Source of the DNA: Desulfuromonadales bacterium
GTDB taxonomy: Bacteria > Desulfobacterota > Desulfuromonadia > Desulfuromonadales > JAGXHI01
Assembly (NCBI GenBank): GCA_024636295.1
Contig: JAGXHI010000062.1
Span: 1 to 64,000 of the forward strand
Reading direction: 5' to 3'
Length of the DNA stretch: 64,000 nucleotides
Shown piece after piece: positions 25,953-40,593 of the stretch. The position numbers and the translations under genes were made by a program. Numbering within the stretch: position 1 is the stretch's first letter; each line of letters starts with the position of its first letter. The notes beneath the pieces are model-generated. The model was not told the origin of the DNA. It did no database searches and saw only the letters and a list, made by a program, of their open reading frames with translations.

Positions 25953-26029
25953 GGCCCCGTAGCTCAGCTGGATAGAGCAACCGCCTCCTAAGCGGTAGGT
26001 CGTGCGTTCGAATCGCGCCGGGGCCGCCA
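25953..26029 (+). tRNA. tRNA-Arg (CCT anticodon), integration target
   Basis: A 77-nt cloverleaf: GGCCCCG pairs with CGGGGCC (26019-26025), anticodon stem ACCGC/GCGGT with loop CTCCTAA, T-loop TTCGAAT, discriminator G and encoded CCA. The anticodon CCT reads AGG. The last 47 nt (from the anticodon stem to CCA) recur exactly at 40547-40593, so the 3' half now comes from the integrated element and the tRNA stays intact. Confidence 0.96.
25983..26029 (+). repeat. attL: left 47-bp copy of att repeat
   Basis: Identical to 40547-40593 over 47 bases; the bases just outside differ (c versus g at the left, t versus a at the right). It spans the anticodon loop, variable region, T arm, acceptor and CCA of tRNA-Arg. 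Confidence 0.95.
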
Positions 26030-26036
26030 TAAAATC

Positions 26037-26074
26037 AAGGACTTACGATATTTGCCGTAAGTCCTTTTTATTTT
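26037..26074 (+). terminator. Terminator downstream of tRNA-Arg (inside element)
   Basis: AAGGACTTACG at 26037-26047 pairs with CGTAAGTCCTT at 26056-26066, followed by a T-rich run. The element thus supplies a new tRNA terminator; the sequence resembles the one displaced to the far side of attR (AAGGACCTACG). Confidence 0.8.
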
Positions 26075-26075
26075 G

Positions 26076-26098
26076 GGGTAGCCTTTTGGGTAGCATTT
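26076..26098 (+). repeat. Two tandem GGGTAGCNTTT repeats (left integrase arm sites)
   Basis: GGGTAGCCTTT at 26076-26086 and GGGTAGCATTT at 26088-26098. Four copies of the same motif, same orientation, lie upstream of the integrase at 40379-40430. Presence at both ends of the element, beside the att repeats, is the layout expected of arm-type integrase sites. Confidence 0.7.
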
Positions 26099-26117
26099 TT
26101 GAAAAGTATTTCTTTCC

Positions 26118-26155
26118 CCAAAAAAAATAACGGAGATCCGAAGGTCTCCGTTATT
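26118..26155 (-). terminator. Terminator at the end of the element's leftward transcript
   Basis: An inverted repeat with AATAACGGAGA (26126-26136) and TCTCCGTTATT (26145-26155). On the minus strand it is followed by a run of T (plus-strand A tract 26120-26127). It would stop element transcription before attL and the tRNA. Confidence 0.8.
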
Positions 26156-26181
26156 GGCCCGACAGTGTGTAAGAGGGAAAA

Positions 26182-26517
26182 TCAGTCCGGCGGGAAATCC
26201 CTGAGACAGAGAGCGATTTTTAATCCAACCAACTCTCCGAACATCTCCATCAAAATGCCATGGTATCCTTCAGTAATTTCGTCGCGAGTTTTCTCTAGGG
26301 CGGACCTTACTCTTTCCACTTCATCGGGGAAGAACGAGCCTCTCACAGCAATGTCGATCCGGCTTTCCATTTCCGAATATTTCAGGAGGTGTTTTTTGGT
26401 CGCGCTACGTATCGCCTCCCGCGTTGAAGCAGGAAAATGGAATAGTTCCTGGTTAATATGCGTATCAAGCATCTCTTCCCAATCAGGCTTCTGAGGAAAA
26501 GCAATTACTTTGGTCAC
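26182..26517 (-). CDS. Hypothetical protein at left end of element
   Basis: A 111-residue soluble, acidic protein with no family that I recognise. The N-terminus is MTKVIAFPQKPDWEEML, the rest is predominantly helical and charged (SEMESRIDIAVRG, VERVRSALEKTRDEI). It is the last gene of the leftward run, 12 bases after the tape measure gene and just before a strong terminator, so it is surely in the same transcript. Being next to the tape measure it could be a small tail protein, but nothing in it proves that. Confidence 0.6.
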   Translation of the reverse strand: MTKVIAFPQKPDWEEMLDTHINQELFHFPASTREAIRSATKKHLLKYSEMESRIDIAVRGSFFPDEVERVRSALEKTRDEITEGYHGILMEMFGELVGLKIALCLRDFPPD

Positions 26518-26529
26518 TCGAATACCCCT

Positions 26530-28407
26530 TTACCTTTTGATGGTCACTCCCCGGCCAACCGCTCGGTTAATGGTCGGGATCAGATTATTTTCAACCCAGG
26601 CATCTTCACCTATTATCGGCCCCTGAATTACGACCGTCAATTCCATTGGCCTGTCTCCGGATTGCATCGGCTGGGTCACAATTGGAGAAGTATTCGTCCC
26701 GCCTCCGCTGCCGATCCGGGTTCCTTCCCCCTGGGGCTTGGCGCCGATCAGGTTTTTCATGTAGGCGGCTCTTCCCGCCACATGCAGAGCCGTCAGAGGG
26801 ATATTCCAGGGATACGGCACACTATTCCATGTTTTGATCGCGCCAGATACGGCCTCCTGGCCAGCCTCCAAAACACGTGCCGCCTGGTTGGCCCGGAACA
26901 TTGCTTGATTGCTTCCGGCAGACAACTGGGTCATGCGCTGCATGTCCCCGGCAACCGTGCTGAGGCGATCCTGCCAGGACGATTGTTCAAACTTTTCCCG
27001 GTCTGAAAGCCCCTCCCAGTGAATCCGGGTCAGCTCGTTCTCCCGCTCTTGTGCGAGTTCCCCCTCGATCGCGTAGAATTCCTGTTTCTGAATCAAACCC
27101 TGAGCAAGAGCCTCCTGGACGATCCCCTTGCGGTTTTGATAGCTTGCCCGGACAAACTCTTCTTCGCTCATCATGGCAAACCGCAGAGCGTCGAGCTGCT
27201 CCTGAGCGGCCTCCTTAGCCATCACATTGCCCAGGATATCCACCGAATCAAACCCTAATCCAAATTCCGGCTTTTCGAAAACCGGCTTGAGTTTCGGAGT
27301 GAAATTTGAAATATCCTCAATGGAATTCTGCAGGGCCGCCTGGTTCCAAGCGTCATCAAAAAAACCTTTGGGCGTGGAGGAAGAAACCGGCACACCGCCC
27401 GATCCTCCGGGGCCTGAGATCTCTATCCTTGGTATTTTGAACCGCTTGCCGGCCTGATCGGCATTTTTATCCTGGAGATCCTGAAGCTCGCCATATTTCT
27501 GGAAAAACTCGACCAGACCGACCAGTGGGCCAATTCCAGGAATGGACCTGACAAGGGAGTCCTTAAGGCCATCGTCACCTCCGGCATCTTTCATCCAGTC
27601 GGGCAATAGGTCATCCAACGCCTTATCGACATCCAGAAGGGCTCTCTCCAGCCCGTACATGGCTGCGGTCAAGGTGTTGATCATCCCCGGAGCGCCGCTA
27701 TCGCCTCCCGCCAACTTAACCGAGGCTTCAAGGACATCCCCGAATTTGTTTTCCAGCGCCGTCAGAGCGCCACCAAGGCCCTGGCGGGCAGCTTTTGCCG
27801 CCCCTCCGAATTCGGTTTGCAGCTCCCGGAGAATGATGCTTTGGGCTTCGGCGACACGGCCGGATTCCACCATGGCACGGATTTGCTCTTTCTGCGCGTC
27901 GGTAAAGGTCACTCCGACGCGGGTCAGGGCGGAGATACCCTGGAGAGGATCGTTGAGGGCTTTGCCGAGCTGGAGGGAGGAAGACTTAAGGTCCTGACCC
28001 ATCGCCGTGGACATATCCAAAATGGCAGGGACGGCCGCCTTGAAGATCTCTCCGCGAATATTGGTGAAGGTTAGAAGGAGGGCCTCCATTTCTATAGTCG
28101 CTTCGTCCCCGAACGTGGTTGTTTTCTGGAGGGCTCCAGCCAAGGCCTGGAGTTCCTGACTGGTCAGGCCCGCAGCGTCCCGCGTGGACTTCAGTCGTTG
28201 CTCCAGCTGGAATATCGCCTGTTCCTGTTTGACGTAGGCCTGAACGGACTTGGAGATCACCGAGGCGCCGAACGCGCCGGCAATAATAGGGCCAAAGGTC
28301 CTCGCCACGTTTCCGAGCGCCTTAATGTTGCTCTCGGCTGATTTTTTCGCCCTGAGCGTCTCGTCCTTGGCCTTAAGACTGAATCTGACCTGTTTGTCGA
28401 CAACCAT
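26530..28407 (-). CDS. Phage tail tape measure protein
   Basis: A 625-residue protein. The start at 28407 is preferred over an upstream frame to 28551, which overlaps the previous gene and is Arg-rich nonsense. The N-terminal 230 residues match the tape-measure pattern seen in long-tailed phages: VRFSLKAKDETLRAKKSAES, LGNVARTFGPIIAGAFGASV, a helical stretch, then LLLTFTNIRGEIF and LGKALNDPLQGISALTRVGV. Mid and C-terminal parts are helical and Gly-rich. Tape measure length sets tail length; this one is short, which would mean a short tail of the long-tailed type. No tail tube, sheath or baseplate gene is seen nearby. Confidence 0.78.
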   Translation of the reverse strand: MVVDKQVRFSLKAKDETLRAKKSAESNIKALGNVARTFGPIIAGAFGASVISKSVQAYVKQEQAIFQLEQRLKSTRDAAGLTSQELQALAGALQKTTTFGDEATIEMEALLLTFTNIRGEIFKAAVPAILDMSTAMGQDLKSSSLQLGKALNDPLQGISALTRVGVTFTDAQKEQIRAMVESGRVAEAQSIILRELQTEFGGAAKAARQGLGGALTALENKFGDVLEASVKLAGGDSGAPGMINTLTAAMYGLERALLDVDKALDDLLPDWMKDAGGDDGLKDSLVRSIPGIGPLVGLVEFFQKYGELQDLQDKNADQAGKRFKIPRIEISGPGGSGGVPVSSSTPKGFFDDAWNQAALQNSIEDISNFTPKLKPVFEKPEFGLGFDSVDILGNVMAKEAAQEQLDALRFAMMSEEEFVRASYQNRKGIVQEALAQGLIQKQEFYAIEGELAQERENELTRIHWEGLSDREKFEQSSWQDRLSTVAGDMQRMTQLSAGSNQAMFRANQAARVLEAGQEAVSGAIKTWNSVPYPWNIPLTALHVAGRAAYMKNLIGAKPQGEGTRIGSGGGTNTSPIVTQPMQSGDRPMELTVVIQGPIIGEDAWVENNLIPTINRAVGRGVTIKR

Positions 28408-28408
28408 A

Positions 28409-28828
28409 TCAACCTTCCCTTTCTCCGGATGCCTCCGGTTGCGCCTGCTGGAAATTACACCGATCGCTCTGAATGAGCGTCTCCAGGTTAAAGGGCGCGT
28501 GGAGCGTCCAGTCAACCAGCGAAGCGGGCGCCACCTGACAGAACGTCTCAAAGTCGCTCACTTCGCCAAAATCCCTGACCTCCAGGCCGCGGATAAAAAC
28601 CACCTTGCCGCCGATCAGCTCGCGGTTTTTCTTTTCGATCTTCTCCGCAGCATCCAGGGCGCTGTAGGCTTCGGCCCGGATTCGGGCGACTTCCGCCTTG
28701 TATGCGTCCATCTCCGGGACATAGATCCCCTTGAGGCCGATAACGATCTGCTCCTCCTCGGGCAACTCCAGGTTGTTCAGAAACGGGGGCAGGCATTCAT
28801 AAACGTGATCGGGGGCAAAAAATTTCAT
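28409..28828 (-). CDS. Probable small tail-assembly protein
   Basis: A 139-residue acidic protein (KFFAPDHVYECLPPFLNNLE at the start) with a central helical segment rich in Ala and Glu. It stops one base before the tape measure ATG. In long-tailed phages the gene just before the tape measure encodes the tail assembly chaperone, so that role is likely by position and size only; no sequence motif proves it and I see no frameshifted extension product. Confidence 0.5.
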   Translation of the reverse strand: MKFFAPDHVYECLPPFLNNLELPEEEQIVIGLKGIYVPEMDAYKAEVARIRAEAYSALDAAEKIEKKNRELIGGKVVFIRGLEVRDFGEVSDFETFCQVAPASLVDWTLHAPFNLETLIQSDRCNFQQAQPEASGEREG

Positions 28829-28855
28829 TCTCTTTCTCCTCAGCTGGTAGGTTGG

Positions 28856-29455
28856 TTATTTCGCTGTTCTCAGGGCGTGGTCGAGGGCTTTGTTGAAATT
28901 GCGCATCCAGCGCTTGTTCACCACACGCTGGGCTGTATCCCGGAACTGGAGCCGCTCGCGGATCTGCGCGTCACGCTCCAGGAAATACATGGGGATGACC
29001 TGCTTTCTCTTCCTCTGGAAAATGGTCTTCTGGCCGTTTTTGCCCGTGCCCACGAAGGAATTCTTCAGGTTGCGCGGGCGGTTTGCCGTTGTGATTTTGT
29101 TTCTCTTATTCCTTCGGACGAAAGAGGAGGGGACGGCCAGGTGTTTCCCCTGGGCCGGCTTTTTGATCCCCCCGGTCTCGTGAAGCTTCATCCAGGGCGC
29201 GCGGGTGAAGACTTCGGCCTCGAGGTCGGTCTTCTTGGCGGCCTTGATATTGAAGCCGAAGCGGGTCCGTGGCTTCCACCACATGGAGCGGAGTGTGAAT
29301 TTCCGATCCAGGCCCCGGACGATCTCGTCCCTGGCATCGGATGCCGTTTCGGTCAGGGCCTTTGCCGTGGCGAAGGGGATCTGCTTTCTCTGGAGGGCGT
29401 TCAGGTAGCGTGTGGCTTCCTGAATGCCGTCCACCTGAATACTGAAATTAAGCAT
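28856..29455 (-). CDS. gp10-like minor tail / tail completion protein
   Basis: A 199-residue very basic protein. MLNFSIQVDGIQEATRYLNA, then QIPFATAKALTETASDARDEIVRGL, is the pattern of phage virion-morphogenesis and HK97 gp10-like proteins, which act at the head-tail joint. The rest is rich in Arg and Lys (FVRRNKRNKITTANRPRNLK). Its start lies only 4 bases after the primase stop, so a structural gene is directly coupled to a replication gene. Confidence 0.65.
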   Translation of the reverse strand: MLNFSIQVDGIQEATRYLNALQRKQIPFATAKALTETASDARDEIVRGLDRKFTLRSMWWKPRTRFGFNIKAAKKTDLEAEVFTRAPWMKLHETGGIKKPAQGKHLAVPSSFVRRNKRNKITTANRPRNLKNSFVGTGKNGQKTIFQRKRKQVIPMYFLERDAQIRERLQFRDTAQRVVNKRWMRNFNKALDHALRTAK

Positions 29456-29459
29456 TGAT

Positions 29460-30611
29460 TCATCCTTTCCTCTGGGAATTGATGTTGAAAATCCGCAATC
29501 CTGGCGGAAGTCCCGCGGCTATCCAGGTCCGAAGATCTCCTCCTGCCTGGTGGTATTCGCCCGGGTCCTTGCCGTGGGGGACCGGCCACCGGGTGGCGTG
29601 CTGGAAATTCTTTGACCACCAGGCGGCGGCCTTGCCGCCCGGGTTCTCTTCCTGCCCCGTCTGCGGGTTCTGGCGGGGCTCGAAATCCAGAGCCACCAGG
29701 ATGCACAGGGACTCTTCAAGCGCCGCTGCGGCTCTTGTTTTCGGGCGGGCGCTACAGGTGCCGAGGGGGACGGCGGAAACAAGATCCCCGGCCAGCCAGG
29801 CAATGAGCATGGCGTCCAGATCCGATTCCACCACCACGTGAGCCTTCGCCTGATCCCCGAAGATGAGCACATCGTCACCGGAACCTGGAAGCCAGTAATA
29901 ACGTGGCTGCTTTTCCGGCTGTCGGATCCGGACCCGGTGGACGCCTTTATCATCGAAATACGGGATGACGATCCCGGAGGGGATCCAGAGCCTTTTCGGC
30001 TTGCCGGTTTTCTCGCTGATCTCCGAGGGGAGCCCCCAGGCGGGCCTTTCCCGGTACAGGTCTTTGGGGACCCACCCCAGGCGAAACATTTTCACCGCCT
30101 CCAGGGGAAGCCCCCGGCCCTCGAGGTAATCCAGCTCCCTCTGACAGCGGAGTAGCTTCTGGTGCGCCCACTCGACCAGGGCGGATGCTTTTTCTCTCCA
30201 GGTCGTTTCCGGGTTCCTGGCTTCGGAGGGCAGCCACCTGTTTTCCGGACTCTTCCGCACGTGCGGCGATTTCAGTGCCGCTTCGCTGCTGTGCGCCGGA
30301 GCCGATCCCCGGCCGATTCGGCACTTGTCCTTCACGGCACAGGTCACAGAGGCGCACTCCTTCCCCAGCGCCTTATGGGCATCCGGACAGCTCATGTTTT
30401 CGAACTTGCGAAGAAACTCGATTCCATCCCCGGCGCCGCAGTTGCGACACATCCAGCCGTCACGCGCCGGCCAGACGACAAACCGGTCAGACTTCACCGC
30501 GTCCGCCTCCGAGGTGCCGCAGGCCGGGCAGGGGCCGTGCCACTCCCCGCCTTTTGAGCTGCTCACCCTGCGAAGAGGGACGTGTTTTTCCACCATCGCC
30601 AGAAGATCCAT
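29460..30611 (-). CDS. DNA primase with CHC2 zinc finger and Toprim domain
   Basis: A 383-residue protein. The N-terminal zinc ribbon shows CPAC ... CRNC with GDGIEFLRKFENMS, the CHC2-like finger that recognises primase start sites. A spacer (about 80-150) precedes the fold with LEGRGLPLEAVKMFRLGWVP, and a Toprim-like part from about residue 245 has HVVVESDLDAMLIAWLAG and CILVALDFEPRQNPQTG. It would make RNA primers for the element's replication together with the D5-type helicase encoded upstream. Upstream of it is an AT-rich repeat-bearing gap. Confidence 0.82.
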   Translation of the reverse strand: MDLLAMVEKHVPLRRVSSSKGGEWHGPCPACGTSEADAVKSDRFVVWPARDGWMCRNCGAGDGIEFLRKFENMSCPDAHKALGKECASVTCAVKDKCRIGRGSAPAHSSEAALKSPHVRKSPENRWLPSEARNPETTWREKASALVEWAHQKLLRCQRELDYLEGRGLPLEAVKMFRLGWVPKDLYRERPAWGLPSEISEKTGKPKRLWIPSGIVIPYFDDKGVHRVRIRQPEKQPRYYWLPGSGDDVLIFGDQAKAHVVVESDLDAMLIAWLAGDLVSAVPLGTCSARPKTRAAAALEESLCILVALDFEPRQNPQTGQEENPGGKAAAWWSKNFQHATRWPVPHGKDPGEYHQAGGDLRTWIAAGLPPGLRIFNINSQRKG

Positions 30612-30718
30612 TATGCCCTCCAGCCCAGGCGGGAGGCCGCCGAGGACGACCCGCCCCCCTTCGCTGAATCAACCAGAAGAATGTTCGATCGGTCGGTGAA
30701 ATCCGGCTGAAAATGGCT

Positions 30719-30894
30719 TGAACAATCATCGTTCAATTCACTAAACTCCCTATATAAAATCTGAATTCTTGTTTAACTTTCTTTGATCTAATATTCAAAG
30801 GTTCAAAAGGGTTAAAATGATAAATAAATACAGATATTTACGGCCTGAACGTTTCCAATTTAACCGTTCATCAACCATTCAAACCGTTCAAAGC
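30719..30894. other. Candidate replication origin with CGTTCA iterons
   Basis: An AT-rich gap between helicase and primase genes. AACCGTTCA occurs at 30862 and 30882 with the variant AACCATTCA at 30873; TTGAAC/GTTCAA form an inverted pair at 30719-30724 and 30731-30736; TGAACG at 30846 and further TTCAAA motifs (near 30794-30806) add to it. The 11-mer CCGTTCAAAGC (30884-30894) recurs inverted as GCTTTGAACGG at 40452-40462 near attR. P4-type satellites have such sites at their origin and at a second replication region. Function here is inferred. Confidence 0.4.
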
Positions 30895-32465
30895 AAATCC
30901 CGCAATTCAATTCCAAGGTATCGCTTGGTCCCGCCGGGTCCGCCCCGGTCCTTCTGAAAGCCTCGTTTCGCCATGTCGTCGCCGAAACGCCTCTGAGAGG
31001 GCACTTTGTCCGATATATTGGCGGACCACCATTCCTTAAAGGACTGATAAGCCGCCTTGGCGGTCGTTTTGGCGTCCTGCGCCTCGGTGCACTTCTCGTC
31101 GATCCAGTCGGCAAGCATGTCCTCGCTTCGCCGGTATTCGGCCGTGGCCGCCAGGACCGAAGGCGGCGGGTTGAGCCCTTCCTTCTGCCAGAGGAGACAG
31201 CCCCGGACCAGCCAGGCCAGGATTCCGGACTCCTCCTGCTTCAGCCGTTCGGGAAGGGTCTTGTCGATCTTTCTTTCATGGGCCGCCGAGGGACGCTCGA
31301 CGTAGGACAGACCGAATTCGATCAGGTGAAGCCTGGACCAGAACGCGAAGTCGGCTGCATCGGCCCGGGGCTTGTGATTGGTGGCCAGGCAGAGAAGGTG
31401 AGAAGGGGGAAAGGTGCTCGGGGCCCGGTCGTGGGGATTACGTCCGGTGAGGCTGTCGCCGCCCGAAAGCCACTTGACCCGGGCGGCGCTGAATCGCCTG
31501 CCCTGGTCCGTCTCGCTACAGAAGGCCAGGCGAAGCCCGCGAAGCGCCATCAGGTGAGGCGAAGGTCCGGCCGGATTGGAAGCCCGGCCCTGATCCAGGA
31601 GCAGCTCCGAGGCCACGGGCGCGGCCAGAGGCCCGAGAACGCTCTGGAGGGTTTCCAGCATCGTGCCCTTGCCGTTTCTGCCGTTGCCGTAAAGGACCGC
31701 AAAGACATGCTCCCGCACGCTCCCGGTGATGCTGTATCCGAAGAGCCTGCACAGGTAATCGGCCTTGGCCTGATCGCCTCCGAGGACCTCGAGGACGAAC
31801 GCCTCCCAGGTCGGGCAAGGGGAGTTCTCCCCCGTGGCTAGATAGTCGCCGCAGTCCTCCGGAAATTCGACCGGCGCGGCCATGGTCAGAAATTCGGAAG
31901 GCCTCCCCGGCCGGATCAGGCCGGTTCTCAGATCGACCACCCCGGTTTTACAGGGCAGAAGCCAGGGTTCCGAATCCAGTTTGTCGCCGGTGACAACCAG
32001 GGAGCCCTCTCCGCATGTCGCCGCGAAGGTCCGGCAGTTTTGACGGCCCCCGATGGATCGTAGCTTGTTCACCCGCCGCATGAACCTGGACTGCCTTTTC
32101 TGGAGTCGCTCGGCATCCTCTTCGTCGGCCGTTTCGGATATCTGACGCCCTACGGCTTTCGCTTCCTGGAAATACAGGCGGGCGATGTCCTCGACGGCGG
32201 GAAGGCTCTCATCCGTGATGTCCTTCTGCCAGAAGTGACCGGACCATCGCAGCCACTCGCCTGCCGTTGCATCGTAGATGAACCGATCCTTGTTCAGAGC
32301 CGCATACAGATAGCCGTCACCCAGTTCATTGAGCTGGAAACACTGCTGGACGAAATCGGACGAGATCGAATCCTCTTTTTTCTCTTCCGCCCCTAACGTC
32401 TCCCGCTCGTACTGGATCCGCTCTTCAACCTGGAGGCGGATTTCCTCCGTTTGAGGTGGGTTCAT
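30888..32465 (-). CDS. D5/P4-family primase-helicase (superfamily 3-type helicase)
   Basis: A 525-residue protein from ATG 32465 (ATG 32492 is an alternative). The N-terminal half has the D5-type pattern GDGYLYAALNKDRFIYDATA and WLLPCKTGVVDLRTGL. The helicase domain has Walker A in LYGNGRNGKGTMLETLQ, then LAFCSETDQGRRFSAARVKWLSGGD and LLCLATNHKPRA (sensor-like Asn). The C-terminal part carries the poxvirus D5 / P4 tail. Such enzymes drive replication of phages, satellites and plasmids. It overlaps the zinc-ribbon gene by about 40 bases. Confidence 0.88.
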   Translation of the reverse strand: MNPPQTEEIRLQVEERIQYERETLGAEEKKEDSISSDFVQQCFQLNELGDGYLYAALNKDRFIYDATAGEWLRWSGHFWQKDITDESLPAVEDIARLYFQEAKAVGRQISETADEEDAERLQKRQSRFMRRVNKLRSIGGRQNCRTFAATCGEGSLVVTGDKLDSEPWLLPCKTGVVDLRTGLIRPGRPSEFLTMAAPVEFPEDCGDYLATGENSPCPTWEAFVLEVLGGDQAKADYLCRLFGYSITGSVREHVFAVLYGNGRNGKGTMLETLQSVLGPLAAPVASELLLDQGRASNPAGPSPHLMALRGLRLAFCSETDQGRRFSAARVKWLSGGDSLTGRNPHDRAPSTFPPSHLLCLATNHKPRADAADFAFWSRLHLIEFGLSYVERPSAAHERKIDKTLPERLKQEESGILAWLVRGCLLWQKEGLNPPPSVLAATAEYRRSEDMLADWIDEKCTEAQDAKTTAKAAYQSFKEWWSANISDKVPSQRRFGDDMAKRGFQKDRGGPGGTKRYLGIELRDLL

Positions 32466-32874
32466 AGGATGGGGTTCCTTCCTGTCCGCCATGGGCAGAG
32501 TTTCGAAACTTGCCTGTCCATGCGGTTGCAAAAGATCGGCTCTTGCCTGTCAGTTCGGCAAGCCCTTGAATATCAAGCCCCACCGAGACGGCAAGGCGAA
32601 TCAGAATATATTCAGCCGGCGAGAAGTGCGCCCCTTCCATGGGCGTCCCCGTCCAGGCGTTGAACCGCCGGCCGCAGCTGATGCACAGCACACGCCGCAG
32701 GGCCCGCAGACTCCTGGATACTTTTTCCGAAAGGGCGTGTCCGCAGAGGGGACACTTCGCCGGATTTATTTCAAATTCGGTAAACAATTGCTTTTTGCTC
32801 TTTTCAACTTCCAGGGCGTCCCGAACGGGTGCCAGAGCTGATATAAGGAATTCTCTCTTTTCGGCGTCATCCAT
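32425..32874 (-). CDS. Zinc-ribbon, HTH-like protein
   Basis: A 149-residue protein from ATG 32874, which has GGGGG 7 bases upstream; a GTG at 32916 would add 14 residues. CPLC and CISC (about residues 43-75) form a zinc ribbon, followed by a helical part (LIRLAVSVGLDIQGLAELTG, KSRSFATAWTGKF) that looks like a helix-turn-helix. It is transposase-zinc-ribbon-like, but there is no catalytic domain. Its end overlaps the helicase start. DNA binding connected to replication or control of the operon is a reasonable guess. Confidence 0.55.
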   Translation of the reverse strand: MDDAEKREFLISALAPVRDALEVEKSKKQLFTEFEINPAKCPLCGHALSEKVSRSLRALRRVLCISCGRRFNAWTGTPMEGAHFSPAEYILIRLAVSVGLDIQGLAELTGKSRSFATAWTGKFRNSAHGGQEGTPSYEPTSNGGNPPPG

Positions 32875-33000
32875 CTTTAAGCCCCCGAAATTACAAGACA
32901 TATTCCATTCTTCCACGTATATTTGAAAAATTAAATGGACTCAAATACCGAGGTTGGCGTTCCCGCGAGGAATTTTTTCCCACAGAGGACCCAGCGGGTT

Positions 33001-33270
33001 TCACTTCCTCGCCTCGTCTATAAAATCCTGTCCGATCCGGCGAACGCGGTTGACTTCCTTGATCAGCCGCTGGCAATCGAGGGTCAACTGCTGGAGGATC
33101 AGCCCGGAGATTACCGCCCGTTCCGAAGGAGTATCCACCGGGTAATTCCTGGGCGGATAGATCGCGCGGGACAAGACCTCCAGATCCTTCTTGATCATGG
33201 TGCGGATCCACTTGATTTCCGAGGCGATGCGGTCGATATTGGCGGCCTGAGCCTTCCCGAGATTCTTCAT
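33001..33270 (-). CDS. Hypothetical small protein of element
   Basis: An 89-residue basic helical protein (MKNLGKAQAANIDRIASEIK; then YPVDTPSERAVISGLILQQL). Its ATG overlaps the stop of the preceding 72-residue gene by 4 bases (ATGA), a strong sign that both are translated. No known family recognised. Confidence 0.55.
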   Translation of the reverse strand: MKNLGKAQAANIDRIASEIKWIRTMIKKDLEVLSRAIYPPRNYPVDTPSERAVISGLILQQLTLDCQRLIKEVNRVRRIGQDFIDEARK

Positions 33271-33485
33271 GTCTTTTCTCTGGATAGATCGGCTGTCCGC
33301 AAGGGGGGGGAAGCGGGGGATATATCTAGGTCCAAACTCACTCTTTTGGAAGATTGAGGAGTCCTGTTCTGGCGCCTGAGTTCGCGACGGAGATCTTGGA
33401 GCAAGGAGATAATCATCTCCTGGTTCTCCGTCTGCTTGTCAATGGACTCGCAGATGCTCATCCAGTCGCAGGTGCATTCACACAT
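33267..33485 (-). CDS. Hypothetical small Cys-rich, coiled-coil protein
   Basis: A 72-residue protein starting MCECTCDWMSICESIDKQ, with four cysteines in the first 13 residues and then a heptad-like helix (MIISLLQDLRRELRRQ). It ends in an ATGA overlap with the next gene. The frame upstream of this start is a readthrough of a hairpin region. Function unknown. Confidence 0.5.
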   Translation of the reverse strand: MCECTCDWMSICESIDKQTENQEMIISLLQDLRRELRRQNRTPQSSKRVSLDLDISPASPPLRTADLSREKT

Positions 33486-33510
33486 GATGAATCTCCAGTA
33501 AAGAAAAGGT

Positions 33511-33567
33511 GGAAGGCCCCCTGGACCGGACATTCCAGGGGAGAAAGTTAAAGCCAGGGGGCCTTCC
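33511..33567 (-). terminator. Large hairpin after capsid gene
   Basis: GGAAGGCCCCCTGG at 33511-33524 is the exact reverse complement of 33554-33567, a 14-bp stem with a 29-base loop. Inside it, CCCCTGG (33518-33524) can instead pair with CCAGGGG (33535-33541). No T tract follows leftward, so it may stabilise the capsid mRNA 3' end or reduce readthrough rather than act as a simple terminator. Confidence 0.5.
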
Positions 33568-33595
33568 GTCCGGGGACGGTCCCCGGATCTCTGAT

Positions 33596-34714
33596 TTATT
33601 GGCCGGCCGATTTGATAGCCTTGGCTCCGACAGCGCAACAATCAAAGTCAATTCGGACCTTGTATTGCACCTCGTCCCTTTCGAAAACTGCACGGGAATC
33701 TGTGTAGGGCTCAAGGTTGTCCTCGTTATCGAGAGTAAGCGCCATGAACACAGGCCAGAGTTTCGGGTCCGGGAGAAGATACCAGGCTGTACTGCTGTAC
33801 CCTGTCAAGGCTGGGCTCTCAAGGAGGGGATCGACAACCGGGACGATGCCGATCTTCTTGAAGAAGTTCGGCACGGCGGCGTTGTTCTGCCCGGGAATCG
33901 AATCGCTGAAGCACAGCTCATGGGCGGTCATCTCCAGACTGGGCGGAACGAGAAGGATCTTCGGCTCCACCTGGAGGGGGTTTCCTGCATCATCGGAGAG
34001 CATCCGAAGGGTCTTTACCGCAGTTGCCAGAGAGTCCTTGCCGAGCGCCGAATCGGCGCCGGAGAGCAGGTTCCCCCTGGAGGCATCGAACACGGGCGTC
34101 CCATCGGAAAGAGAGGGGTTGGAAAGGAGCTGCCGGTAAACCTGCCGATTCTGTGTCATCTTGGCGGTCATGCCCAGGGTTCGCCCCAGATTCTTGAATG
34201 CCCCCAGGTCGTCATTGATCAAGGTCTGGCGGGAAATGCCAAGGATGCCGCCCCTTGTGCGAAGGCGCGCCACCTCCTCGCCTTCCTCGGTTCTCAGCCT
34301 CGTGTATTCGCCCTCTTCGTTAACCACCGGAAGATCTGCGGGAGGCGAAGTCCTGACAATAGAGAACTGGCGAAAGTCTTTGTTGCTCCCACGGGCAGCC
34401 CACTCCAGGAAGGTCCCGGGTGCATATCGATACCCGTGCTCGAGCGCCTTGTTTGCCGTGGCAGCCAGAATTTTCGGGAAATCGCTGGTGGTGAGCGCTC
34501 GATTGAATAGCTCGTGGTCATTGCCCCCCGGTGAGACTCCGGCATCCCGAAGAGATTCTCTGGCCAGTTCCCGGAAGCCGAGGTGTTTCAGATCGTGGTG
34601 TTTCTGTGCCTCGGTGCTTCCGCTTTCGCTGGGCAGACCTGCCCGCGCCGCCAGAAACTCGCTGGCCGCCCAGGCTCTTGAGCCCTTTGTGAGCCCTTCA
34701 ATTAGTCTTGGCAT
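33596..34714 (-). CDS. Phage major capsid protein (Mu gpT-like / HK97 fold)
   Basis: A 372-residue protein. The pattern LTTSDFPKILAATANKALEHGY, then FLEWAARGSNKDFRQFSIVR, LRTRGGILGISRQTLINDDLGAF and YLLPDPKLWPVFMALTLDN is that of capsid proteins otherwise found as the C-terminal half of protease-capsid fusions or as gpT-like subunits. The N-terminus is short; no protease or scaffold domain precedes it, and none is encoded next to it. A DUF2190 decoration protein gene lies upstream, as usual for this capsid type. Confidence 0.82.
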   Translation of the reverse strand: MPRLIEGLTKGSRAWAASEFLAARAGLPSESGSTEAQKHHDLKHLGFRELARESLRDAGVSPGGNDHELFNRALTTSDFPKILAATANKALEHGYRYAPGTFLEWAARGSNKDFRQFSIVRTSPPADLPVVNEEGEYTRLRTEEGEEVARLRTRGGILGISRQTLINDDLGAFKNLGRTLGMTAKMTQNRQVYRQLLSNPSLSDGTPVFDASRGNLLSGADSALGKDSLATAVKTLRMLSDDAGNPLQVEPKILLVPPSLEMTAHELCFSDSIPGQNNAAVPNFFKKIGIVPVVDPLLESPALTGYSSTAWYLLPDPKLWPVFMALTLDNEDNLEPYTDSRAVFERDEVQYKVRIDFDCCAVGAKAIKSAGQ

Positions 34715-34903
34715 TTTTCTGATCTCCTGTGGAAAAAGGTTTATTTGCCGGCCGCGAGCAACATGAAAGGAGAAATACTCCGCCGGCTGTCGGGGGTTAT
34801 TCGGGGCTCAGGACCCCGGGCACACTCCACCGACTTGTGCCCACGCTATGGACGGTTTCTGGAGAGTATGGAAACCAGGCAGCGCAACCCGGATCCAATT
34901 CGA

Positions 34904-35236
34904 TTAAGCATTGAGCTTGACGCGCACAACCGAAGCCGCCCCAGCGGCCGCAGCGAAGGCATAGCCCGCCAAGGTCTGATCGGTAGTGGTCTTGTCGAGC
35001 TCGCCGCTTGTGGCGTCGCAGTACAGAAGATCCCCCTGTGAGATCTCGAGGGCGGCCTCTTTCGGAACCTCGAACACGCCCGACATGGCGACTGTGCCGC
35101 TATCGCCATCGGCGATATCCACCAGCGCCACGCCCACGCGCACGCCGATCACCACCAGGTCCCCGGAGGCAACATCGCTGCCGGTCCCGTTTGTCCAGGT
35201 GATGTTCTCACCGTTCTGGACGAAGTTTTTTGCCAT
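34904..35236 (-). CDS. DUF2190 capsid decoration protein
   Basis: A 110-residue beta-rich protein beginning MAKNFVQNGENITWTNGTGS with the typical DUF2190 course: VASGDLVVIGVRVGVAL, GVFEVPKEAALEISQGDLLY and the ending TLAGYAFAAAAGAASVVRVK. Members sit on the capsid surface and stabilise expanded heads. Its position just upstream of the capsid gene supports this. The 189 bases to the capsid start hold no gene. Confidence 0.85.
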   Translation of the reverse strand: MAKNFVQNGENITWTNGTGSDVASGDLVVIGVRVGVALVDIADGDSGTVAMSGVFEVPKEAALEISQGDLLYCDATSGELDKTTTDQTLAGYAFAAAAGAASVVRVKLNA

Positions 35237-35290
35237 GGTTGTTCTCCTTTAAAAAAATTGGACGTTTCCGAGAGGAAAAATACGGAAAAA

Positions 35291-35497
35291 TTAACCCCGC
35301 ACTTTTCCGCGAGATCTAGCCCACTCCAAGAGTTCGGATGTAATATATGCGGTTTGTCCCATGGATACTTGCCGCCTCCTGGGGAAATCTGGATCTGATG
35401 TTTCCAACCGCAATGCAGTGGAGCGGGATATCCCCAAGACTTGCGGGATCTGGCTCGGCTTAGTGAAAAAAGCTTTTTGCTTGGATGAGAAATTCAT
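35291..35497 (-). CDS. AlpA-family transcriptional regulator
   Basis: A 68-residue helix-turn-helix protein. FTKPSQIPQVLGISRSTALRL, then DPDFPRRRQVSMGQTAYITSELLEWARSR, is the AlpA/Cox pattern. AlpA proteins are activators of integrase or excision genes in P4-like elements. The ATG at 35497 is chosen because the frame upstream has no conserved sequence. It could switch the element between integrated and excised state by acting near the integrase; that is inference. Confidence 0.75.
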   Translation of the reverse strand: MNFSSKQKAFFTKPSQIPQVLGISRSTALRLETSDPDFPRRRQVSMGQTAYITSELLEWARSRGKVRG

Positions 35498-35607
35498 GTT
35501 GCGCCCCCGTTGCTTTGATTTACAGCGACGGTAAAGGATTGGCGCAGGTTGAGATAGGATATTGGGGCGTGAAAAAATGGGGCTAGAAAACCCCATCGAA
35601 GGGCGGC

Positions 35608-36264
35608 CTATTGGAACCGTGTCCTGTAATGTCGTACAGCATACCTCACTAGTGAATCTAAGCCTTGATTGTCGCCTGCAAGAGAGAGGCAGGCGTCTAA
35701 CACTTTTGCAAACTTCCCAAGATACCCGTCGCTTTGGCGGCAATAGGAGCTGGGCTTTTCTTGTAAAATATTTTCAAAGAGACCAGCAACTTCGATAGCA
35801 AAGGACCGGCGATGTGCCTTTTTATTTTCTTCCTTTGGATTCTCTTTAATAGATAGTCTTGCAGCCTCCCTTCCCTGTGTCGCAGCCCAAGTCAGGCCGT
35901 GCAAATCAACAATAAGGTAGCCTAGAAATTGCCGCCCATTCTTCCTTATCAAAGCCCTCTTTTTTGCCTCAGAGATAGCGTCGAAAAGAAAATCAGAGCA
36001 TTGAGCTCCACTTACTGTCGATCCTTGTAGATATTTTATTTCATCGATAGCCTTGGTAATTGCATCAGTGAGCCTTTCGGAGGATTTGATAAACTGGGCT
36101 CGCTGGACCCTGTCTGTGTGCTCTTTCCTCTGAATCTCAAATTTCCAGAGCTCCCAAGATAGGGCGTCAATAAAAGCATGAGTTTTCCCTTCATTGTGGC
36201 CAACTATTTCTGTTATCTTGTCTCGCCACTCTTTGGGATATCTGCTATATGAATCGAATGGCAT
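35608..36264 (-). CDS. Hypothetical protein, cargo candidate
   Basis: A 218-residue helical, soluble protein (start MPFDSYSRYPKEWRDKITEI). No family recognised. It is visibly more AT-rich than the genes around it, uses codons such as AGA and ATA more freely, and lies alone between AlpA and the RadC-like gene, with a hairpin just upstream. Satellites often carry host-range or anti-phage cargo at such positions, so it deserves attention, but nothing in the protein shows a mechanism. GGGAG lies before the ATG at 36264; the ATG at 36282 is the alternative. Confidence 0.6.
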   Translation of the reverse strand: MPFDSYSRYPKEWRDKITEIVGHNEGKTHAFIDALSWELWKFEIQRKEHTDRVQRAQFIKSSERLTDAITKAIDEIKYLQGSTVSGAQCSDFLFDAISEAKKRALIRKNGRQFLGYLIVDLHGLTWAATQGREAARLSIKENPKEENKKAHRRSFAIEVAGLFENILQEKPSSYCRQSDGYLGKFAKVLDACLSLAGDNQGLDSLVRYAVRHYRTRFQ

Positions 36265-36305
36265 AATCAACGCTCCCTTCAAAAGCGCCCTTCAAAAAAG
36301 GAACT

Positions 36306-36361
36306 GCCCCGCCAAGCCGGTGAAGGTGTCCGGCTGTTCGGCGGCCAAACCTAGGCGGGGC
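36306..36361 (-). terminator. Hairpin between RadC-like gene and hypothetical gene
   Basis: GCCCCGCC at 36306-36313 pairs with GGCGGGGC at 36354-36361, with smaller GCCGG/CCGGC pairing inside. On the minus strand it is followed by a T run (plus AAAAAAGG at 36294-36301), so it can terminate the RadC transcript. Confidence 0.6.
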
Positions 36362-36436
36362 AATAGGAAATTACTTCCTCCTTAAAATCTCTATTATCTT
36401 CTCCACCTTTTCATCTTGCACGGGACTCTCTTTCTT

Positions 36437-37201
36437 TTACTCATCCCGTTCCCGGATTTCCCCCAACTCTTCCTCGATTCTTTTCAGCTCGTCCCGAACC
36501 TCACGAAGGATGTTTCCATGTCCGATTTGCGCCAATGTGGCGCCGTTCAATTGGTCCCAATCCATGCAGGTGACAAAATCGACCTTCGCTTTCAAGTCAT
36601 AAAGACGGTCCCCCACATCGAGCAGCCGGCTTTTACACTCACATTCCCGCTTTTTACTCCCACTCGAAACCGTGCTCTCGGAAATTCCTCCAGACGGCAT
36701 GATTCCCAGATCTACAAAACTGATGTATCTATCCCTCCCGATGATGATGTGATCGAGCATCCGGATTCCCATGAGGTGAGCGGCATCCTGGAGCCTGACG
36801 GTGATTTCCTTATCCTCCTGACTCGGGGCCGGATCCCCGGAGGGATGATTGTGAACGCAGATAATAGCGGCGCTTCCGTTCAACACAGCGCCTTTAAAAA
36901 CCTCTCTCGGATGGACCAAGCTTGTGTTCAGCGTCCCTATCGCTATAGTTTCTTTCGCCAGGAGTCTATTCCTCCCGTCCAAATGAAGAACTATAAAGAG
37001 CTCTCTGTCCTGCTTCATCAGCTCTTCGCCCACTTCTCTAAAAATGAGGACAGAAGAGGTGAAGCGTGTCCCCGGCTCTTTTGAGGGGTTCGATACTTCG
37101 ACTTTCAGGGTGGGAATTTTAGAGGAAGAGGATTGCGGTTGCTTGGGAGTTTTCTTCCGGTTGGTTTTCTCGGTCTTTTCTGCTACCTTCGCTTCAGCCA
37201 T
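36437..37201 (-). CDS. RadC-like JAB-domain protein
   Basis: A 254-residue protein. Residues 1-30 are Lys-rich. Residues 40-155 are the RadC/DUF2466 JAB domain with the metal motif HNHPSGDPAPSQED and the upstream Glu region. The helix-hairpin-helix of chromosomal RadC is absent. About 100 extra residues at the C-terminus end in a coiled coil (VRDELKRIEEELGEI). Such proteins are common in mobile elements; their biochemical role is unsettled. It lies between Fic and the hypothetical cargo gene. Confidence 0.8.
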   Translation of the reverse strand: MAEAKVAEKTEKTNRKKTPKQPQSSSSKIPTLKVEVSNPSKEPGTRFTSSVLIFREVGEELMKQDRELFIVLHLDGRNRLLAKETIAIGTLNTSLVHPREVFKGAVLNGSAAIICVHNHPSGDPAPSQEDKEITVRLQDAAHLMGIRMLDHIIIGRDRYISFVDLGIMPSGGISESTVSSGSKKRECECKSRLLDVGDRLYDLKAKVDFVTCMDWDQLNGATLAQIGHGNILREVRDELKRIEEELGEIRERDE

Positions 37202-37273
37202 GATGCACCTCCTATTCAGGTGTGTTGTGGTCAGGCCCGGGAAGGTGGTAGGACACCCGCCCGGGCCGCTTCT

Positions 37274-38029
37274 TTACTCCGCCGTCAATGTCCTGAAGAG
37301 TCGCAGATAATCACGCTGCGCCTCGTGGACCATGTTGGAAATGAGGTTGATGAAAGGCTCCTCGTCGCCGGTGTTGGCGGCTTTGAGAGCATCGATGTAA
37401 TCCGGCCGTAAAATCGGGGGAATGACCGTTACCGGAAAGCCGTCCTGGACCAGTGCCAGGTTCATCAGCAATCGCGCCGTGCGGCCGTTGCCGTCCTGGA
37501 AAGGATGAATGGTGACGAGCCGAAGGTGCAGCCAGGCGGCAAACGCCACCGGATGAACCTTCGCCCGCACGTCCGGAATCTGGGAGACGAATTCCGCCAT
37601 GATACGCCGGATTTTGCTTGGTGGCGGAAGCTCGATCGTGGCACCGGTGATGATGGCCGGTTCCTTGCGATATTTTCCCGCCTGGCCAGGATCGATCCGG
37701 TAGAAAAAGAGCCGGTGGAGTTCCCTGATATCCGTCTCCGTGATTTCCCGGCGCTTCGCCAGGCGGAAAAGCAGTTCGAAGGCCTCGGCGTGGCCCACGG
37801 TCTCGAAATGATCCCTCAGCGGCTTGCCGGCGACGGTGATGCCGTCCTCGAGGACCACTTTCGTTTCGCTCTCCGTCAGGGTGTTGCCCTCCAGGGCGTT
37901 GCTGCTCCAGGTCAGGCCGATCTTGTAGAACTCCCGCAACTGCTCCAGGGCCTTCTTTCCCAGGGGCCGAAGATTTCGGATATCCTCCTGGAGTCGGTCG
38001 ATATCGGATAAGCGGTTATTGAATTTCAT
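37274..38029 (-). CDS. Fic-family protein (probable AMP transferase), class II
   Basis: A 251-residue protein. The Fic core motif is HPFQDGNGRTARLLMN, with all catalytic residues (His, Asp, Asn, Arg). The N-terminal inhibitory helix carries SNALEG, fitting the S/T-x-x-x-E-G/N rule of self-inhibited Fic proteins. The flap region KYRKEPAIITGATIELPPP is present. The ATG at 38029 lies 26 bases after the higA stop; the frame continues upstream but overlaps higA. Fic enzymes transfer AMP or similar groups to target proteins; the target here is unknown. Confidence 0.88.
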   Translation of the reverse strand: MKFNNRLSDIDRLQEDIRNLRPLGKKALEQLREFYKIGLTWSSNALEGNTLTESETKVVLEDGITVAGKPLRDHFETVGHAEAFELLFRLAKRREITETDIRELHRLFFYRIDPGQAGKYRKEPAIITGATIELPPPSKIRRIMAEFVSQIPDVRAKVHPVAFAAWLHLRLVTIHPFQDGNGRTARLLMNLALVQDGFPVTVIPPILRPDYIDALKAANTGDEEPFINLISNMVHEAQRDYLRLFRTLTAE

Positions 38030-38055
38030 CGGCGTCCTTTTCTTTGTCGCACGTG

Positions 38056-38349
38056 TCAGTCCGCATCCACAAGGCGCTCGACTTTCAGAGTCTTGCGCTT
38101 CTTTTTGATCTGCCAAAGGTCATAGTGCATCTGCTGAGTAAGCCAGCTTTCAGGTGTGGTATCGAAGGCGTCGGAGAGCCTCAGCGCCATTTCGGGGCTG
38201 ATTCCGGTCTTGCCGTTGAGCAGCTCCGAGAGGGCTTTTCTGGAGACCCCGAGGGCCTTTGCCGCATCGGTGACGGAGATCCCCAGGGGCGCAAGGCACA
38301 GCTCGCGGATGACTTCACCGGGATGAGGGGGATTGTGCATCATGGTCAT
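38056..38349 (-). CDS. HigA-family antitoxin-like regulator, no HigB partner
   Basis: A 97-residue XRE-type protein. [38 protein letters not shown] and [17 protein letters not shown] are diagnostic of HigA antitoxins. HigA normally follows higB directly. Here the gene upstream is another antitoxin-like regulator, and the gene downstream is fic, so the usual RNase partner is missing. A HigA-Fic pair would place a DNA-binding repressor under the same promoter as a Fic enzyme. Confidence 0.85.
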
Positions 38350-38380
38350 ACTCCTTCGAATCTAAGACGTTCCGCGAACT

Positions 38381-38719
38381 TTAGGCGGACCCCTTAAGAC
38401 CCCTTTCGTTGTTTTTCTTCAATCGGTCTGCTCGAGTAAGAATTTGAAGCAGACCTTCAGGATCGTTGTCCGCGGCATTCAACAGAACCAGGGCTGGGCC
38501 CTGGGGCTTGCGGTCTCCGCGCTCCCAATGGCGCAGGGTGGCAACGCTGATTCCGAAGGTGGCCGCGAACTGATCCTGGGTCAGTCCTGTTTTTCCGCGA
38601 ACGTCCTTCACATTCACGGCCCGGGGTTTGAAAACCCGGACCTCCGTTTTTTCCCCCTTACTATGGGCAATGGCCTCCTCAAGGCCCCTTTTGATGCTTT
38701 CGAAAAGTTCGCTCATCAT
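38381..38719 (-). CDS. NadS-type (HigA2) antitoxin
   Basis: A 112-residue protein with an N-terminal toxin-binding part (MSELFESIKRGLEEAIAHSK) and an XRE helix-turn-helix (VKDVRGKTGLTQDQFAATFG, LRHWERGDRKPQGPA). It starts 6 bases after the stop of the RelE-type toxin. This is the standard toxin-first order of HigB2/HigA2 pairs, in which the antitoxin also represses the operon. Confidence 0.85.
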   Translation of the reverse strand: MMSELFESIKRGLEEAIAHSKGEKTEVRVFKPRAVNVKDVRGKTGLTQDQFAATFGISVATLRHWERGDRKPQGPALVLLNAADNDPEGLLQILTRADRLKKNNERGLKGSA

Positions 38720-38725
38720 CGACTC

Positions 38726-39058
38726 CTATAACCTGTTTGCCTTTTTTAAGAGGTATGTAAGGGCGCGAAGATCCCTTTTTTCGCTGGCAGTCAGGTTGTC
38801 TTTTTCGTTTTTGCCGTAAATACTCAGCAGGTACAAAGGCATCCTGTCGCTGTGATAATAATAAATGACCCTTGCACCGCCCCTTTTGCCACGTCCTTCC
38901 ATGCCCCAGCGGAACTTCCGAATTCCGCCTGCCTCTTCCATAAGATCGCCGGATTCCGGGTGCTCGGACAAATACCATATCAGCGAATCGCGTTCGACCT
39001 CTTTTAAAAGTCGGCGGGCCTTGCGCTGGAATTCGCCGGTTTCTGCTACGGTAATCAA
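38726..39058 (-). CDS. RelE/HigB2-type toxin
   Basis: A 110-residue RelE-fold protein: ITVAETGEFQRKARRLL, GDLMEEAGGIRKFRWGMEGR, GGARVIYYYHSDRMPLYLLS and YGKNEKDNLT are typical of HigB2 and related ribosome-dependent mRNA endonucleases. TTG at 39058 is chosen because the protein then begins like family members and GGAGG lies 8 bases upstream; TTG 39064 adds two residues. A 15-bp palindrome precedes the gene. Confidence 0.82.
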   Translation of the reverse strand: MITVAETGEFQRKARRLLKEVERDSLIWYLSEHPESGDLMEEAGGIRKFRWGMEGRGKRGGARVIYYYHSDRMPLYLLSIYGKNEKDNLTASEKRDLRALTYLLKKANRL

Positions 39059-39082
39059 GTCCAAGCCCTCCTGTAAAAATAG

Positions 39083-39097
39083 TAATCCATTGGATTA
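39083..39097. promoter_or_regulatory. Palindromic operator of toxin-antitoxin operon
   Basis: TAATCCA-T-TGGATTA, a perfect 7-1-7 palindrome 24 bases upstream of the toxin start. On the minus strand it lies between a TTGCGC -35 (39102-39107) and a TACTAT -10 at 17-base spacing, overlapping the -10, which is where an antitoxin repressor would bind. Confidence 0.6.
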
Positions 39098-39117
39098 TGT
39101 AGCGCAAGAAAAAAGGT

Positions 39118-40329
39118 TTATCCTTTCCTGAACTCAATTACATTGTCGTTTTTTTTGTCGCTTAGAATCCGCTCCAGCTTTCTAGCCCACCCCTCCAGCG
39201 CCTGCCTCTTCTCCCGGTCGTAATCGTAGCGGTCATAGATCGCCGTCACCGTCCGGTTGGTGTGGTTCAGTACTTTCTCGACAATGACGCCGTATCCGAG
39301 CTGGGCCATGTGGCTTGCTGCCGTTCGGCGCAGGTCGTGAGGCGTGAAATGATCCAGGGCCAATTTCACTTCCCCGGTTTCCTTGTCCGGATTCATGGCC
39401 CTCCTGACAGCGTGAGCCAGGGCGTTGACCTCGATTGCCCTGCCGCCGCGAGGGGAGGGGAAGTAAAAACCGTCTTCGTCAGGTTCCAAAAAAAGCCCCT
39501 GTGCAAGCGGAGTCAGGAAGACCCGATGAGATCGCTTGTTCTTGGAGCGTTCGGCCGGGATCGTCCACCATTCGCCGTCCATTTCAGATTCGTGGGCTCC
39601 GATGACCTCCCCGGGCCGCTGCGCCGTGACGAGGATCAGCTTCAGAGCCCGTTTCAGCTCCTCGGTCATGCCGCACTTCTCCAGGGCCGTCCAGAAGGTC
39701 TTGATTTCCTCTTCGGAAAGGAAGCGGTCCTTTTTATTGTCCGGCGCCAGGGGCTTGACCTGGAGGCAAGGGCTGTGCTCGAGAAGATCTCTTTCCACAG
39801 CAAAATTGAACATCCTCCGTACGATCTTAAAAACCTGCGTGCTCTGATTGACCGCGCCCCGTCCGGCGATTTTCTCCATGAGAAGAACGACATCCCGCCG
39901 GCGGATATCCTTCGCCTTGACGTGCCCCCACTCGGGAACCACGTCCTTATTCAGGCTGCGCTCGTACTCCCTCCAGGTACGGTTCCCTTTAACCTCAAGG
40001 CTCTTCAGAAACTCCTTCACCAGGTCGGCAACCGTGGGGGCCCTGCGCTCCACCTCAATGGCGGCCTGTTTCCTGTTGCCGGGATCGATTCCCCGATTCA
40101 GGAGCTTGCGGGCCCTGGCGTGCTCTTCATGGGCGTCGGCAAGGGGCATGTCGGGATAGTCCCCGAAAGTCATCCGGCGAGATTTTCCCTGAAAGCGGTA
40201 CATGAAGATCCAGGTCTTCCGGCCGGCAGGGGAGACCCGGAGGCCAAAACCCTTGCCGTTCGTCTCCCAGACTTCGTATCTTTTTTCCGCCGGTTTAATG
40301 GCCTGAATGGCGCGGTCCGTGAGTTTCAT
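39118..40329 (-). CDS. int: Tyrosine recombinase (P4-type integrase)
   Basis: A 403-residue integrase. The N-terminal DUF4102 domain (AEKRYEVWETNGKGFGLRVS, FMYRFQGKSRRMTFGDYPD) is the arm-binding part; a SAM-like core-binding domain follows; the catalytic domain has Arg in AQRPGEVIGA, HDLRR with the second Arg, and Tyr in AIYDRYDYDREK. It lies 217 bases from attR and transcribes away from it. Four GGGTAGCNTTT repeats stand directly before its ATG, so integrase binding there may also repress its own promoter. Confidence 0.95.
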   Translation of the reverse strand: MKLTDRAIQAIKPAEKRYEVWETNGKGFGLRVSPAGRKTWIFMYRFQGKSRRMTFGDYPDMPLADAHEEHARARKLLNRGIDPGNRKQAAIEVERRAPTVADLVKEFLKSLEVKGNRTWREYERSLNKDVVPEWGHVKAKDIRRRDVVLLMEKIAGRGAVNQSTQVFKIVRRMFNFAVERDLLEHSPCLQVKPLAPDNKKDRFLSEEEIKTFWTALEKCGMTEELKRALKLILVTAQRPGEVIGAHESEMDGEWWTIPAERSKNKRSHRVFLTPLAQGLFLEPDEDGFYFPSPRGGRAIEVNALAHAVRRAMNPDKETGEVKLALDHFTPHDLRRTAASHMAQLGYGVIVEKVLNHTNRTVTAIYDRYDYDREKRQALEGWARKLERILSDKKNDNVIEFRKG

Positions 40330-40378
40330 TTTTTGCCCCTCCGAGAATATGGCGGTAGGTTTGAAACGCCAAAAATCC

Positions 40379-40430
40379 GGGTAGCATTTGGGTAGCGTTT
40401 TGCGCTGTGGGTAGCCTTTGGGTAGCGTTT
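40379..40430 (+). repeat. Four GGGTAGCNTTT repeats (right integrase arm sites)
   Basis: Copies at 40379, 40390, 40409 and 40420 (11 bp each), arranged as two tandem pairs separated by 8 bases. They match the pair at 26076-26098 and lie between int and attR. Confidence 0.72.
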
Positions 40431-40485
40431 TTTATGGTATAAAATGAAACTGCTTTGAACGGATTTAAACATCAAAAGGATGGGA

Positions 40486-40535
40486 TGTCAATAACTTATA
40501 TTGACACATGGAATTGATTGAAACGGATTGAAACG
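40486..40535 (+). promoter_or_regulatory. Inverted repeat and tandem repeat beside attR
   Basis: TGTCAATA (40486-40493) and TATTGACA (40499-40506) form an 8-5-8 inverted repeat. GATTGAAACG is repeated in tandem at 40516-40525 and 40526-40535, ending 11 bases before attR. Probable sites for an excision factor, repressor or integrase; which one is unknown. Confidence 0.5.
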
Positions 40536-40546
40536 CCTAAAAAATG

Positions 40547-40593
40547 GCCTCCTAAGCGGTAGGTCGTGCGTTCGAATCGCGCCGGGGCCGCCA
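40547..40593 (+). repeat. attR: right 47-bp copy of att repeat
   Basis: Identical to 25983-26029, but here without the tRNA 5' half, so it is not a tRNA gene. Confidence 0.95.

Follow-up and report, generated by a model that had tools for sequence, protein, structure and literature searches.

The 64-kb window, that is, the whole stretch of DNA analyzed here, carries an integrated element of about 14.6 kb (26030–40593) bounded by a 47-bp direct repeat of the 3′ end of tRNA-Arg(CCT). The element encodes an integrase, AlpA, a helicase and a primase. It has capsid, cement, tail and tape-measure genes as well, and we did not class it as a PICI. A syntenic element of 14.7 kb with both att repeats present was found in another family (locus L045, 6150–20900; G075). 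The two integrated elements (14.6–14.7 kb) have in common int, AlpA, MCP, cement, D5, the origin region, primase, minor tail Z and tape measure, and their MCP corresponds to the C-terminal half of protease-MCP fusion families. Among the ORFs tested, no terminase, portal or prohead protease was recognizable in either of them. This type looks like a conserved satellite-like element with its own capsid and tape-measure genes. The coordinates of the features discussed below are collected in Table 1.

Table 1. Positions of the att cores, replication genes and repeat features of the element (window coordinates)
Feature	Position	Strand	Remark
attL core	25983..26029	+	3′ part of tRNA-Arg(CCT), 47-bp direct repeat, sequence read
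DnaG-like CHC2 zinc-ribbon primase	29460..30611	-	Directly downstream of the putative origin
Non-coding gap, putative replication origin	30612..30887	-	276 bp; order D5 helicase, gap, primase
Distal cluster, inverted iteron repeat TTGAACGAT-g-ATTGTTCAA	30718..30736	-	G127 counterpart TTGAAGGAT/ATCCTTCAA
A-rich stretch beside pair 2, AGATCAAAGAAAGTTAAACAAG then TATATAGGGAGTTTA; predicted melting region	30745..30793	-	AT-rich
Core tandem pair 2, TTCAAAGG TTCAAAAGGG, inverted relative to pair 1	30794..30811	+	Blind inverted-tandem search
Oppositely oriented iteron copy CTGAACGTTTC (AACGTTCA on the - strand)	30845..30855	+	One mismatch to AACCGTTCA
Third iteron ATGAACGGT	30863..30871	-	PWM scan
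Core tandem pair 1, TTTGAACGG TTTGAATGG, 9-bp period	30875..30892	-	Blind inverted-tandem search
D5/P4-family self-loading helicase, proposed origin-binding initiator	30888..32531	-	PF08706 and TIGR01613 above cut-off
Winged-helix domain, helicase C terminus	residues about 471–547		AlphaFold model
Zinc-ribbon-like 163-aa protein	32425..32916	-	Gene upstream of D5; conserved member of the replication module
Tyrosine integrase of the element	39118..40329	-	At the right end of the element
11-mer matching the gap near attR, judged a chance match	40452..40462	-	Not part of the origin
attR core	40547..40593	+	Second copy of the 47-bp tRNA-Arg 3′ segment, sequence read

Several other features of the element were observed. 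Between the integrase and RadC genes (37274–39064) lie a 280-aa ORF, Fic-like by eye, and a small gene pair that by eye is of the toxin/HTH kind; both are possible cargo. GGGTAGC repeats occur on both att arms (26076–26100 and 40378–40430) and are probably arm-type sites of the integrase. The TTGAAACGG/TTGAAACGCC repeats beside attR (40517–40540 and 40361–40371) bear no relation to the iteron word and are possibly excisionase sites. One candidate for a free-living example was the circular 13.7-kb plasmid of Syntrophotalea acetylenica (NZ_CP015456.1; L067), on which a recombinase, a phage tail gene and a CII-type regulator are also encoded. It was rejected, since its D5 homologue is split among several frames and lacks an origin-like gap behind it.

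The helicase scores 215 bits against TIGR01613 (P4-family primase C-term; cut-off 108.7). Fold neighbors of its C-terminal domain, modeled as a winged helix, are, among others, RFX, Orc1/Cdc6 and the C terminus of C962R. When the PDB was searched by sequence and fold with the helicase, viral D5 and C962R helicases were among the matches listed and the P4 origin-binding domain was not. Homologues of the 163-aa zinc-ribbon-like protein, for which profile searches gave no family match, adjoin D5 in many relatives, and the gene order Zn protein-D5-gap-primase is widely kept among them. In the window element, the reading frames of both the D5 helicase and the primase are intact.

The region from 30719 to 30894 has a GC content of 31%; the element as a whole has 56% and the window 54%. 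Its iteron cluster overlaps the last codons and the stop of the D5 helicase gene, the first iteron lying over the stop codon. A preliminary description of this DNA had reported CGTTCA-type repeats in an AT-rich gap between the helicase and primase genes, and our results bear this out: the gap contains 4 copies of CGTTCA/TGAACG where shuffles average 0.13 (P = 0.0005) and, of the 30 copies in 64 kb, no other 176-bp stretch holds more than 2. As CGTTCA is a word picked after the fact, we also used statistics that include the choice of the word. The best 9-mer with at most 2 mismatches, corrected in this way, has 9–10 copies in the gap against a shuffle mean of 5.6–5.9 (P = 0.003–0.007). Exact k-mer pair counts in the window's gap were not significant, because the iteron copies are degenerate. 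We then relied on a blind search, given no seed word, for a tandem 8/9-mer that occurs twice, in inverted orientation. It returned exactly one hit in 64 kb, core pairs 1 and 2, which lie 81 bp apart and score 12; this score was reached by 0 of 1000 dinucleotide shuffles of the region (P = 0.001). The AT-rich core is flanked by iterons at 30845–30892 and at the distal cluster, with pair 2 in between. No RNA family was found in the gap.

Relatives were drawn from viral contigs and from within the same order, class and phylum; a scan of the genome contigs yielded one partial relative. The same layout, with a blind search score of at least 12, stands directly 3′ of D5 in 34 of the 59 other loci, compared with 0.4% in shuffles and 2.6% in control segments, the 34 loci not being independent events since closely related elements have words in common (e.g., L071/L072). 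Because the score was devised after the gaps of the first relatives had been viewed, its significance for them is in part circular. A cleaner test set is formed by the phylum-level loci L083–L109 and the named phages and plasmids described below, all examined after the layout had been noticed. Despite differing words, the start-to-start spacings of the inverted pairs fall mostly into two bands, 74–90 and 97–116 bp; L036, with 62 bp, is unlike the other scoring loci. In 15 of 20 relatives, no other 300-bp part of the locus is as rich in repeats as the gap, and up to 12 iterons per gap are found, on both sides of an AT-rich core. About 40% of loci gave no inverted tandem pair in the blind search, including L084, L085, L091 and L094.

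The closest relative, G127, has a helicase 67–69% identical to that of the window and iterons at matching positions, with the word changed to TTGAAGGAT/TTGAATGAT. The reverse of pair 2, TTTGAACCTTTGAA, falls within a block identical in G127, which also keeps AAGTTAA and TATATAG.GAGTTT of the A-rich stretch; an A-rich tract is present at the equivalent place in the gaps of other relatives. In L045, L047, L048, L049, L053, L071–L074, L040 and AcaML1, an alternating CG tract (GCGCGCG or CACGCGCG) lies between the core pairs; this tract is absent from the origin gap of the window.

Each element or close group has an iteron word of its own. That of the window is TTGAACGG; others are GGAACGAT (G171/G177), CAGGACAAT (G229), GTGCACCAT (G075) and, in a further group, ATGATGAAA or TATGACGAT. 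Two D5 elements found in one genome (C22 and C61; assembly completeness 87%) also carry different words, TTGAACGG in the window and TATGACGA at G000:C61, which argues for a reader encoded by the element and against a host protein. Word similarity gave a partial correlation of 0.18 for the C-terminal domain and of 0.19 for the helicase core. As good as equal, these values do not discriminate between the two.

Taken together, clustered, element-specific iterons 3′ of D5 and a layout conserved in most relatives strongly support the view, already put forward in the preliminary description, that the gap is an iteron-like origin. The region 30719–30894 is very probably the replication start site of this phage-like element. 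We consider it likely that the gap is the single origin of the 14.6-kb element, at which its own D5 helicase loads on two inverted tandem pairs and melts the AT-rich stretch. In this scheme, the helicase would use its C-terminal winged-helix domain to recognize the iterons of about 9 bp, and would assemble on the two pairs. The AT-rich stretch beside and between the pairs would then be melted by the helicase and unwinding would begin, probably with two opposed hexamers, the primase encoded just beyond the origin making the primers. Since the layout is kept while the word is private to each lineage, a helicase should start only its own element.

The repeats have also been read as one half of a two-site replicon of the P4 kind, in which the same helicase would bind both the gap and a distant cis site near attR. 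This reading was prompted by the 11-mer CCGTTCAAAGC, present in the gap and, on the opposite strand, near attR, and P4 itself has an ori and a crr that are both bound by alpha, the crr lying 3′ of alpha. Here, however, the link to attR did not hold: 11-mers common to the gap and the rest of the element number 3 against 2.9 expected from shuffled gaps, and CCGTTCAAAGC is found 4 times genome-wide against 3 for its reversed control. For AACCGTTCA the genome-wide counts are 27 against 14. Elsewhere in the 64-kb window there is no second inverted tandem pair, and the repeats of the right arm near attR are GGGTAGC, which are better explained as arm sites of the integrase. The 13 relatives scanned over at least 10 kb around an iteron-rich gap yielded no second cluster of the local word. 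The only exception to a lone cluster in this search for a crr-like second cluster is L054, where a whole origin-like region, not a lone 11-mer, is duplicated; its two regions (2564–2984 and 5300–5560; G070:C111) carry the same word, GGGAGGAT, and a D5 gene with an internal deletion lies between them. A two-site arrangement is therefore very improbable, and with the 11-mer at chance level and no second cluster in the 13 relatives, the window element looks like a single-site replicon.

Iteron-like direct repeats can serve as operators. As the gap is upstream of the primase gene, the repeats could belong to a regulator controlling transcription of the primase and tail genes, with no origin present. 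We regard this as unlikely, given that a scan for sigma-70-like promoters and for terminators found none in 30550–30950, that up to 12 iterons per gap lie on both sides of the AT-rich core, and that the layout tracks the helicase even in loci such as L092, L098, L103 and AcaML1, in which the sequence just downstream gave no primase homologue. It is hardly to be expected, either, that the gap is an origin for a host initiator, with DnaA boxes, or a functionless relic in a decayed prophage. The lack of a recognizable terminase, portal and prohead protease among the ORFs tested would suit such a view; against it, no TTWTNCACA box occurs within 3.8 kb of the gap, which also sets it apart from DnaA-assisted iteron plasmids, the D5 and primase frames are intact, and the syntenic element of G075 retains both att repeats in another family. 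A single origin served by the element's own helicase accounts best for these observations.

Beyond this element, we lean slightly toward the idea that D5/P4-family replicons use one origin grammar in several phyla, with 8–9-bp words in two inverted tandem pairs, preferably about 75–90 or 97–116 bp apart, just 3′ of the helicase gene. The word would be swapped in each lineage and read by the winged-helix tail, so that co-resident elements replicate independently. A layout reported as restricted to PICIs thus turns up behind a large class of D5/P4-family helicases, be they from phages, plasmids or integrated elements. It also offers a rule for finding origins missed by annotation; the repeats of PhelpsODU, for example, sit within an annotated hypothetical gene. 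The helicase-word pairs form a natural series in which to study how replication specificity is set by a winged-helix domain, and they could help to predict which elements can reside together in a cell.

The closest described layout is the single-site origin of SaPIs and PICIs, in which two iteron sets flank an AT-rich region 3′ of rep, an organization said to be common to no other known bacterial replicon (PMC6092414). As in these elements (PMC6092414, PMC7581432), the window origin adjoins the 3′ end of the initiator-helicase gene, short iterons in two sets surround an AT-rich region and the iteron words vary between elements; in SaPI Rep, the C-terminal domain is the iteron reader (PMC6092414, PMC7581432). 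These likenesses support a self-loading-helicase origin of the SaPI/PICI kind. Unlike in SaPIs, the helicase of the window is a separate D5/P4-type protein with a CHC2 DnaG-type primase encoded beyond the origin, whereas the primases of SaPIbov1 and SaPI5 are AEP-type; moreover, the host is a Desulfuromonadales bacterium and the element has capsid and tail genes. The same organization behind D5-type helicases outside PICIs contradicts the claim that it is restricted to them.

The analogy with P4 (NC_001609) is sound as to the helicase family (TIGR01613) and needs to be reversed as to the site. In P4, crr is directly 3′ of alpha and has type-1 iterons with 9-bp tandem and inverted copies, while some 2 kb separate ori from the opposite end of alpha; the positional counterpart of the window gap is therefore crr and not ori. 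P4 differs in having a second site, the distant ori, which combines type-1 with type-2 repeats, and in alpha being a fused primase-helicase, compared with a single site and separate proteins in the window. The blind layout search gave no significant score on P4 crr. Its equivalent position suggests that crr may descend from such an origin.

SCCmec Cch2, also a D5_N/Primase_Cterm helicase, has a binding site downstream of its own gene that is bound by its C-terminal domain and is a putative origin (PMC7581432). There, a single direct-repeat region with three iterons and a primase of the CCPol-MP type (PMC7581432) replace the inverted tandem pairs and CHC2 primase of the window. The blind search did not find the inverted tandem pair behind the D5-type gene of phiC31, Caron, RR1-A, GMA4 and Javan426; the layout is not universal in the D5-helicase class. 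Inverted tandem repeats scoring 15–17 of 17 do stand directly 3′ of the D5-type gene in Acidithiobacillus phage AcaML1 (77 bp apart), Waddlia plasmid pWc (103 bp), Mycobacterium phage PhelpsODU (110 or 197 bp) and Arthrobacter phage Constance (183 bp), with words and spacings that differ from those of the window and with unrelated genes around them.
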